NCBI GenBank assembly: GCA_016871675.1 | Contig: VHCN01000023.1 | Span: 1-44,589, forward strand | Length of the DNA stretch: 44,589 nt | Direction: 5' to 3' | Source of the DNA: Verrucomicrobiota bacterium | GTDB taxonomy: Bacteria; Verrucomicrobiota; Verrucomicrobiia; Limisphaerales; VHCN01 | Shown: positions 4,029 through 14,397 of the stretch, in pieces | Layout of the letters: every line of letters begins with the position of its first letter | How positions within the stretch are numbered: position 1 is the first letter of the stretch | Position numbers and translations under genes: made by a program | The notes under the pieces: generated by a model | Database searches by the model: none | What the model saw: only the letters and a program-made list of their open reading frames with translations | Told to the model about the DNA's origin: nothing

Positions 4029-4055
4029 AAAAAAGCGCGGCTGAACCAGCCGCGC
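4029..4055 (-). terminator. Rho-independent terminator after the Sec thioredoxin gene
   Basis: On the minus strand there is a perfect 9-bp stem GCGCGGCTG/CAGCCGCGC (plus positions 4035-4043 and 4047-4055) with a 3-base loop, followed at once by six T (plus 4029-4034). It lies 24 bases past the stop codon at 4080 and ends the thioredoxin transcript before the propeller gene. Confidence 0.85.
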
Positions 4056-4079
4056 TGTTGAACAGGATGTCGCCGGGAG

Positions 4080-4526
4080 CTACTTCTTCTTGAGCAGCTC
4101 CTCAAGTTTGGCGATCACGGACTTCACACCCTTCCCGTCGTAGCCGACGATGGTGCCGAGCTTCTTGCCGTCGGCATCGAGCACGAGCAGCGTGGGGAAG
4201 CCTTCGATCTCGTATTTGTCCTTCACTTCCACGTTGTGCCGGTTTTGGGCCTCGGTCTGCTTCTTCTTGTCGGGGAAATCCACCTCGACGAGCACGAGCT
4301 TCTGTCTGGCCCAGTCCTTGAACTCCTTCTTGGCGAAGACGTCCTTGTTCAACTTGATGCACGCGCCTCACCAGTCCGAACCGGTGAAGTCCACGAGCAC
4401 TTGTTTCTTGTCCGCCTTGGCCTGCGCGAGCGCCTTGGGCAGGTCGGTCAGCCACGCGGCCTCGGCCGCGCGCGACGCGCCCGCGAGCGCGAAGCAGGCG
4501 GCGAGGGTCATCAGGGTTTTGTTCAT
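4080..4526 (-). CDS. thioredoxin-like selenoprotein candidate (UGAC active site)
   Basis: 148 residues if the in-frame TGA at plus 4370-4368 (codon 53) is read as selenocysteine. The start is ATG 4526, with AAGGA five bases upstream and a signal peptide (MNKTLMTLAACFALAGASRA). The secreted thioredoxin_7-type family common in PVC bacteria has a VDFTGSDWCxWCIKL motif. Here the sequence reads VDFTGSDW-TGA-GACIKL, so the TGA falls exactly on the first, nucleophilic Cys of CxxC, giving U-G-A-C with the resolving Cys at 56. The frame then continues without a lesion through the cis-Pro segment (EGFPTLLVLDADGKKLG) to a TAG at 4080. A start at TTG 4352 would give 90 residues with no signal peptide or active site and is rejected. 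Alternatives are a point mutation or sequencing error (TGC/TGT to TGA). The second such gene at 6282-6755 makes chance unlikely. Confidence 0.8.
4320..4344 (-). promoter_or_regulatory. SECIS-like hairpin after the thioredoxin UGA
   Basis: Read on the minus strand, 25 bases can fold as a stem of nine pairs (two of them G-U) with one internal G-A mismatch and a five-base apical loop GCCAA (plus 4334-4330). The loop begins with G, 33 bases after the UGA. Bacterial SECIS elements are hairpins just 3' of the UGA, inside the coding region, with a G among the first loop bases, so the form fits. I paired it by eye; in GC-rich coding DNA such hairpins also arise by chance. Confidence 0.4.
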
Positions 4527-4616
4527 GGGGTCCTTGGGTTGGGGTTTGCTGGAAATCCGCGTCGCATCAGGGGCGGCAACCCGCCGTGAGGATGAGATGG
4601 CGGTCTTGCTGCCGAC

Positions 4617-5459
4617 TTACTTGCCCGCGTTGTCGTCGTATTCGCCGAGCTTGCGGAGCCAGATGTTGCGGAAGCGCATCGGATTGCCGTGGTCCTGCAA
4701 CTGGATGAACACCTCCGGCGCGTGCGGCGAGTTGTAGTTGCCGGTGCGCAGGTGCGGCGTGTTGCCGAGGTATTCGCGGCGGTGATGCACGACCACGCCG
4801 TTGTGGATGACGGTCACCGCGGCCTTCTTGATATTCTGCTTGTTCTCGTCCCATCGCGGTGACTCGAAAATGATGTCGTAGCTCTGCCACTGGCCGGGGC
4901 CTTTGCTCGCGTTGACGAGCGGCGGTGACTGGCCGTAGAGCGCGGCGCACTGGCCGTCGGGGTAGGTTTGGTTCCCGAACGAGTCGAGCACCTGCACTTC
5001 GTAGATGCCGTTGAAGAGCACGCCGCTGTTGCCCCGCTGCTGGCCCTCGCCCTTCACCTCGACGGGTGTGGCGAATTCGAGGTGGAGCTGGAAATCGGCG
5101 AACTTGCCCTTGGTCTGGATGCTGCCGGTGCCGCCGACGACTTCCATGTGGCCGTTCTCAACCTTCCAGCCGGGCGTGCCGGTCTTGCCGCCGGTCCACT
5201 GGCTGAGGTCGGTGCCGTCGAAAAGGACCGTGGCGTCGGACGGCGGTTTGGCCAGGTGGCTGAAGCTCTCGCCGGGCTTGATGATGCGCGGTTGCGGGCG
5301 GTCGCCGTCGTGCACGACCCACTTGGTGCCGGGGATGGATGGCGTGTTGATGTAGCCCACGCCTTTGCGCTCGACCTTCTTGTCTTGGGGCGCGGCGATG
5401 ACGAGTGCCGAGGCGGCGGTGGCGGCCAGAGCGAGGGAAATCCAGCAGGTGGTTTTCAT
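4617..5459 (-). CDS. DUF1080 (3-keto-disaccharide hydrolase-type) secreted protein
   Basis: 280 residues from ATG 5459, chosen because it begins a signal peptide (MKTTCWISLALAATAASALVIA); the frame is open further upstream without one. The body shows the DUF1080 jelly-roll pattern: VLFDGTDLSQW, GWKVENGHMEVV, FQLHLEFATP, RGNSGVLFNGIYEVQVLDS, GQWQSYDIIFESPRW and, at the end, EVFIQLQDHGNPMRFRNIWLR. Family members are extracytoplasmic; some hydrolyse 3-keto-glycosides and others have no known activity. It is encoded upstream of the Sec thioredoxin (90-base gap, same strand). No Shine-Dalgarno sequence is obvious. Confidence 0.9.
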   Translation of the reverse strand: MKTTCWISLALAATAASALVIAAPQDKKVERKGVGYINTPSIPGTKWVVHDGDRPQPRIIKPGESFSHLAKPPSDATVLFDGTDLSQWTGGKTGTPGWKVENGHMEVVGGTGSIQTKGKFADFQLHLEFATPVEVKGEGQQRGNSGVLFNGIYEVQVLDSFGNQTYPDGQCAALYGQSPPLVNASKGPGQWQSYDIIFESPRWDENKQNIKKAAVTVIHNGVVVHHRREYLGNTPHLRTGNYNSPHAPEVFIQLQDHGNPMRFRNIWLRKLGEYDDNAGK

Positions 5460-5609
5460 GGTGAGGAATCGGGTTGTTGGTTGCGCCGCGAACTGCCGAC
5501 GACTGCGCCGTGCCCGCGGAAGTGGGCTATCGGTAGCATCCGTCCCGCGGCAAGGCAAGCCCCGCGACGAGGCGAGGCGGCGTGAGGGTTTCGCCCGGCG
5601 GTCGCGGTG

Positions 5610-12731: not shown

Positions 12732-12805
12732 TGTCCGGTGGTGTAACGGTAGCACAAGGGTCTTTGGAGCCCTTTGTCATGGTTCGAATCCATGCCGGAC
12801 AGCCA
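12732..12805 (+). tRNA. tRNA-Gln (anticodon UUG)
   Basis: A full cloverleaf: acceptor TGTCCGG pairs with CCGGACA; D arm GTG/CAC; anticodon stem AGGGT/GCCCT with loop CTTTGGA (anticodon TTG); T arm CATGG-TTCGAAT-CCATG; discriminator G; CCA encoded at 12803-12805. The U1-A72 first pair is typical of bacterial tRNA-Gln. The gene ends 14 bases before the sulfatase start codon. Confidence 0.97.
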
Positions 12806-12819
12806 GCTTTCACTGACCT

Positions 12820-14397
12820 ATGCGCGCAAACAAACTTCGAAACGCCGGGGCTCTCATCGTTGCGACCTGGCTCTCGGCGGCGGCGGCCTTCGCCGCGAGG
12901 CAGCCCAACATCCTGTTCATCTTCACCGATGACCACGCGTATCAGGCCATCAGCGCCTACAACGATCCGCGCAAGCTCGTGGAGACGCCGAACATCGACC
13001 GCATCGCCCGCGAGGGGATGATCTTCCACCGCGCGGTGGTGCCCAACTCCATTTGCGGGCCGAGCCGCGCGACGGTGCTCACGGGCAAATACAGCCATGC
13101 GAACGGATTCTACAACAACACCAACTCTCGCTTCGACGGCGCGCAGCAGACGTTTCCGAAGCTGCTCAAGGCGGCGGGCTACCAGACGGCCATCGTCGGC
13201 AAGTGGCATCTCGTGAGTGATCCGACGGGGTTTGATTACTGGGAAATCCTCCCGGGTCAGGGCGTGTATTACAACCCGCCGATGAACCGCATGGGCCAGC
13301 AGGTCCGCCACAGCGGTTACACCACCGACATCATCACCGACCTCGCCCTCGCGTGGCTCAAGAACCGCGACAAGGCCCGTCCGTTCGTGATGATGTGCCA
13401 GCAGAAGGCGCCGCATCGCGAGTGGTCGCCGGCGCTGCGCCACCTCGGCTGGAACGGCGACCGCAAGTTTGCCGAGCCGGAGACGCTGTTCGATGATTAT
13501 TCCGGCCGCGGCAAGGCGGAGCGCGCGCAGGACATGACGATCGAGAAAACATTTACGCTGCTCGATGCGAAGCTCACCACCCCCGGCAGCCTCAACGAGG
13601 AACAGCGGGTGAAGTGGAATGAGTATTACGGCCCGCGCAACGCGGCCTTCACGAACGCGAATCTCACAGGCAGGGACCTCGTCCGCTGGCGCTACCAGCG
13701 TTACATGCACGATTACCTCGGGTGCATCCTCGCCGTGGACGAGAGCGTGGGACGACTGCTCAAGTTCCTCGACGACGAGGGGCTCGCGAAGGACACGCTC
13801 GTGGTCTATTCGAGCGACCAGGGGTTCTATCTCGGCGAGCACGGGTGGTTCGACAAGCGCTGGATTTTCGAGGAATCGCTGCGCACGCCGCTCGTCGCGC
13901 GCTGGCCGGGCGTGACCAAGCCCGGCGGCGTGAATCGCGACATCGTGAGCAATCTCGACTTCGCCAGCACCTTCCTCGATGCGGCGGGCGTGGCCGTGCC
14001 TGCGGACCTCCAGGGCCGCAGCCTCGTGCCGGTGCTGCGCGGCCAGACGCCCGCCGACTGGCGCAAGAGCTTCTACTACCATTATTACGAGTTCCCCGGC
14101 CCGCACAGCGTCGCGCGCCACTACGGCGTGGTGACCGGGCGCTACAAGCTCGTGCGCTTCTACGAGGCGAGCATGAACTACTGGGAGCTGTTCGACCTGC
14201 AAAAGGACCCGCGCGAAATGAAGAGCGTTTACGGCGCGCCCGACTACGCTGCGACGCAGAAGGAACTCCACGCCGAACTCGACCACCTCCGCAAGGAACT
14301 CAAAGTGCCCGACCCCGATCCGGAGGAAACCGCCATCCGCCCCGGCGCGGGGAAAGCGAAGAAGGGTGAGGCGAAGGGGAAAGCCCCGGGAAAATAG
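12820..14397 (+). CDS. secreted S1-family sulfatase (formylglycine type)
   Basis: 525 residues from ATG 12820, with a signal peptide (residues 1-26, [16 protein letters not shown]). It hydrolyses a sulfate ester, probably of a polysaccharide, in the periplasm or outside. Metal site [13 protein letters not shown] (Asp37, Asp38); formylglycine site Cys79 in [21 protein letters not shown], which matches CxPSR and needs an anaerobic or aerobic sulfatase-maturing enzyme; KWHL at the KxxH position; and [20 protein letters not shown] for the second metal cluster. The C-terminal subdomain is followed by a Lys/Gly-rich tail ([14 protein letters not shown]). It begins 14 bases after the tRNA-Gln gene with no room for a promoter of its own. 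The exact substrate cannot be told; the overall form resembles the heparan or mucin-desulfating sulfatases. Confidence 0.95.

Follow-up and report, generated by a model that had tools for sequence, protein, structure and literature searches.

An in-frame UGA at the catalytic position of a DsbH-like gene points to a secreted, thioredoxin-fold selenoprotein in Verrucomicrobiota

The window analysed here comprises 44,589 nucleotides of contig VHCN01000023.1 from a Verrucomicrobiota bacterium of the order Limisphaerales (GCA_016871675.1). On its minus strand, a frame of 149 codons including the stop runs from an ATG at 4526 to a TAG ending at 4080 and, with UGA read as selenocysteine (Sec), codes for a DsbH-like protein of 148 amino acids (4080..4526), as delimited by the ORF and its Pfam, NCBIfam and PDB matches. 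The sole in-frame stop is the TGA at 4370-4368 (codon 53; DFTGSDW-U-GACIKL), which forms the first residue of a UxxC motif, with the TGC of Cys56 at 4359..4361. Sequence and alignment agree with the first-pass annotation in placing this single TGA at the first Cys of the CxxC motif of the family. We take the putative Sec53 to be the nucleophile and Cys56 the resolving residue, as in other UxxC thioredoxin folds. The N-terminus of the read-through protein (MNKTLMTLAACFALAGASRAAEAAWLTD) includes a probable signal peptide at residues ~1-21 (MNKTLMTLAACFALAGASRAA; 4464..4526, minus strand), read from the sequence and coinciding with low pLDDT over residues 1-20, with a predicted cleavage site. The protein also contains GFPTLLVLD, in which Pro111 (codon at 4194..4196, minus strand) occupies an invariant alignment column and corresponds to the cis-Pro position of thioredoxin folds. 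The flanking signals noted in the first-pass annotation are present: a moderate Shine-Dalgarno-like AAGGA 5' of the ATG (4531..4535, minus strand) and, 3' of the gene, an intrinsic terminator-like hairpin with a 10-bp GC-rich stem and a T-run (4034..4056, minus strand), shuffled versions of this region containing 0.9 terminator-like sites on average. Standard ORF calling yields only a 90-amino acid TTG-start fragment (4080-4352), the truncation that had been anticipated for automatic annotation. The upstream neighbour (4617..5558, minus strand) codes for a 3-keto-disaccharide hydrolase domain and lies outside the proposed mechanism. Elsewhere in the window, a sulfatase (SGSH-type) gene (12820-14397, plus strand) is located immediately 3' of a tRNA-Gln(ttg) (12732-12805).

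Among Pfam families, the read-through protein best matches Thioredoxin_7 (PF13899; E 1.2e-17), with Thioredoxin_2 (PF13098; E 1e-14) and others matching as well. It also matches the NCBIfam DsbH model (NF043050; E 6.6e-35), the 120.6 bits falling below the curated equivalog cut-off of 190, and on these sequence matches it is termed DsbH-like rather than DsbH. DsbH itself (PDB 2ju5) is the closest solved relative (40% identity, E 3.4e-25 in phmmer). An AlphaFold model built from an alignment of 24 homologues predicts a thioredoxin fold (pLDDT 97-98 over residues 31-80) with residue 53 immediately preceding the helix formed by residues 54-64, and Foldseek ranks 2ju5 first (TM 0.75, 40% identity, E 1e-12), followed by the DsbD gamma domain, so that the predicted fold is of the DsbH type. 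The invariant columns of the alignment include G49, S50, D51, position 53, C56 and P111. The initial description as a thioredoxin-like, secreted protein thus holds for the fold, by both Pfam and AlphaFold, and can be narrowed to a relative of DsbH, while secretion is predicted from the signal peptide. The genome holds no other close copy of the gene.

The same TGA at codon 53 occurs in seven further genomes of the order, namely G051, G054, G089, G154, G155, G156 and G140 (the genome of locus L128). Cys occupies the position-53 column in the remaining aligned homologues, and codon 53 is TGC or TGT in the relatives searched that lack the TGA, in line with the comparison to Cys homologues proposed in the first-pass annotation. 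A pattern in which codon 53 could be TGA, TAA, TAG or TGG, applied to 320 genomes of the order, retrieved only TGA among true homologues, a control partly biased for TAA and TAG in that TGC becomes TGA in one step and either of these in two. A TGA-motif scan of ~85,000 species genomes returned 113 stretches, of which 23 are true homologues (six from the same genomes as the order-level TGA carriers) and most others are short chance ORFs. Among the titles listed, the homologues derive almost throughout from Verrucomicrobiota and Planctomycetota. At least two dozen other genomes of these two phyla share the identical codon and show no further in-frame lesion, other lesions in related strains being what the first-pass annotation had named as evidence against a selenoprotein. 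Two homologues, L122 and L100 (titled Planctomycetota), code for two tandem thioredoxin-like domains, with GSDWUxxC in the second only.

The draft genome (3.61 Mb, 149 contigs, 97% complete) encodes selA, selB, selD and tRNA-Sec, the four components whose absence would have spoken against the original proposal. The tRNA-Sec, selD and selA genes are consecutive within 2.6 kb on contig C44, while selB is located on contig C27 (311.8 bits with its neighbours in frame; cut-off 242). The tRNA-Sec has a UCA anticodon, is called SeC/tca by ARAGORN and scores 68.6 bits. Only Rfam matches of 61-69 bits were accepted as tRNA-Sec; those of 50-54 bits were discarded and, where checked, represent ordinary tRNA-Ser(tga). 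The selD gene adjoining tRNA-Sec and selA (L018:1480-2430) codes for a UGA selenoprotein in its own right, with the in-frame UGA at the catalytic site (SSCAGUAAK). A Thioredoxin_7 search further identified two adjacent Trx7/PDZ genes on the minus strand of contig C8 (27800-28780 and 26336-27658; L221:6337-8781), each with two in-frame UGAs (FRUVPUVDC and FRUVPUVEC). These match the Trx7/PDZ (seleno)protein model NF041199 with E-values of 6e-89 (slightly below cut-off) and 1e-117. Their UxxU motif looks like a double-Sec variant of the family, for which the listed motif is CxxU with one Sec. A CxxCH haem-type motif is also present in these genes, in which UGA apparently serves as the true stop as well. 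Counting the DsbH-like gene, the genome thus has at least four genes with UGAs at redox positions, six such UGAs in all.

Across the order, selA is found in seven of the eight TGA genomes as opposed to 84 of the 312 others (Fisher p 8e-4), a correlation that partly reflects shared ancestry, five of the eight carriers belonging to one family. Similarly, selA is present in 20 of the 23 genomes with scan homologues and in 11 of the 21 whose match to the pattern is due to chance (p 0.02). ARAGORN confirmed tRNA-Sec in G051, G089, G154, G155 and G156. No selA, selB or tRNA-Sec was found in the TGA carrier G054 (L026, L182; 79% complete, 1080 contigs), and no selA match in two more of the scan genomes. 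The gap in G054 is probably due to incomplete assembly, although the genome may also have been misbinned or have lost Sec decoding recently.

Bacterial decoding of UGA as Sec relies on SelB, Sec-tRNA and a SECIS element. By the published rules, this element has a small apical loop with a G, located shortly 3' of the UGA (PMC1088965). As a group, the Sec genes form stronger hairpins than their own synonymous-codon shuffles (combined p 2e-5, relatedness ignored), and their SECIS-like hairpins are stronger than those of the Cys homologues (Mann-Whitney p 7e-4, relatedness likewise ignored). Clear SECIS-like shapes occur in several of them, for instance with GGUC as the loop in both L128 and L125, or with CGUG in the Planctomycetota set. 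The window gene has a candidate hairpin at 4320..4344 on the minus strand (GGACgUCUUC-GCCAA-GAAGGaGUUC), with a loop that begins 33 nt after the UGA with G as its first base and a stability of -8.7 kcal/mol. Relative to synonymous shuffles this corresponds to z -2.4 and p 0.09, and folding the 60 nt that start at the UGA as a whole shows nothing unusual (z -0.2). The SECIS search proposed at the outset was productive at the level of the family, and for the window gene it returned a candidate, which forms the weakest link of the selenoprotein case. A TTG codon for Leu59, which may be part of the SECIS, is found in all eight Verrucomicrobial Sec genes as against nine of the 35 Cys homologues with Leu (p 2e-4); it was set aside as evidence, being confounded by ancestry and by the use of TTG elsewhere in several of these genes.

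Comparison of the codons 3' of the UGA with those of the closest Sec homologue (61% identity; 76 gapless codons) gives a dN of 0.29, a dS of 1.09 and a dN/dS of about 0.26, and the region 3' of the TGA is thus under purifying selection. This bears directly on the possibility that TGC mutated to TGA in a gene that no longer functions or yields only a translated fragment. Such a change would take a single step, and the 90-amino acid product of ordinary ORF calling is what it would leave. Degeneration is, however, at odds with the continued coding selection beyond the TGA, with the lesion-free recurrence of the identical codon and with a genome that holds both the Sec machinery and other UGA genes, and a pseudogene is very unlikely. 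An error of sequencing or assembly at 4370-4368, hiding a true TGC or TGT, might be suspected in a draft of 149 contigs, but would then need to have struck this one codon repeatedly, in unrelated assemblies produced by many projects. Since the TGA is identical in independent genomes, such an error, like a pseudogene private to this genome, can be ruled out for practical purposes, its probability being close to negligible. Full-length protein would also result from any other form of readthrough, be it reassignment of UGA to Trp or Cys or near-cognate decoding. This is extremely unlikely in a genome in which UGA apparently terminates both of the C8 Trx7/PDZ genes, the in-frame UGAs found sit at redox positions and the tRNA-Sec has a UCA anticodon.

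The Sec machinery, the other UGA genes, the recurrence of TGA at the same codon, its association with selA and the selection downstream of it together make it highly probable that the gene codes for a secreted DsbH-like thioredoxin-fold oxidoreductase with a selenocysteine nucleophile. Sec at residue 53, as originally proposed, accordingly has the support of machinery, recurrence and selection, the insertion of Sec being deduced from them. A ribosome reaching the UGA at codon 53 of the mRNA would be met by SelB and Sec-tRNA(Sec), steered by a hairpin just 3' of the UGA, and translation would continue to the TAG at 4080 after Sec insertion. The protein would then be exported by means of its signal peptide, and the Sec53-Cys56 selenenylsulfide/selenol pair may serve in the cell envelope to reduce disulfides or oxidised thiols of a related kind, with electrons supplied by a DsbD/ScsB-type transporter. 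The export, the reducing direction and the electron donor are proposed by analogy with DsbH, a chlamydial periplasmic protein described as a dithiol oxidoreductase that acts in the reducing direction and is akin to both thioredoxin and DsbD-gamma (PMC5193440).

DsbH of Chlamydophila pneumoniae (2ju5; NF043050) is the nearest known protein in both fold and sequence, and shares the FTGSDWCxxCIK context and the small, exported, single-domain architecture. The window protein differs in having Sec for the first Cys and in its score below the equivalog cut-off. Neither a DsbH family nor a single-domain UxxC family of the Thioredoxin_7 type is among the 119 families of prokaryotic selenoproteins inventoried in 2026, the nearest entries being a PF13098 UxxC thiol:disulfide interchange protein, Trx7/PDZ (CxxU) and selenothioredoxin (PMC13188914). 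The first of these (WP_011366075.1; PMC13188914, PMC9312934), reported from Geobacter and Syntrophus (PMC1794560), shares the UxxC motif and the PF13098 match, but PF13899 is the best Pfam family of the window protein; the two were compared by description only and may overlap. Trx7/PDZ (NF041199) is likewise a Thioredoxin_7-domain selenoprotein, with the two copies on C8 in the same genome, but has CxxU as its listed motif and a PDZ domain, and its model matches the window protein with E 4e-4 over 58 residues, short of a full-length match above cut-off. Selenothioredoxin (PF00085) also has UxxC in a thioredoxin fold with Sec as the nucleophile, but belongs to the classic thioredoxin family, whereas the window protein is DsbH-like and has a signal peptide. 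None of the NCBIfam selenoprotein models covers the window protein. It is therefore likely that these DsbH-like, secreted UxxC oxidoreductases form an uncatalogued selenoprotein family across Verrucomicrobiota and Planctomycetota, set apart from the PF13098 UxxC entry by description, in genomes with a small, envelope-directed selenoproteome (here SelD, the Sec-containing DsbH-like protein and the double-Sec UxxU Trx7/PDZ proteins). The double-Sec pair in the same genome also suggests that selenium chemistry is directed at the cell envelope. Annotation renders such genes as fragments or pseudogenes, so that a redox enzyme of the envelope that depends on Sec goes unnoticed in a large, mostly uncultured group. 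The Sec and Cys lineages are intermingled in the tree, with six parsimony changes; no direction of change is claimed, as the tree is weakly resolved and unevenly sampled, the Sec rows having been collected by TGA pattern and the Cys rows from the order only. The occurrence of Cys and Sec forms within one order amounts to a natural experiment on the contribution of Sec to the enzyme.
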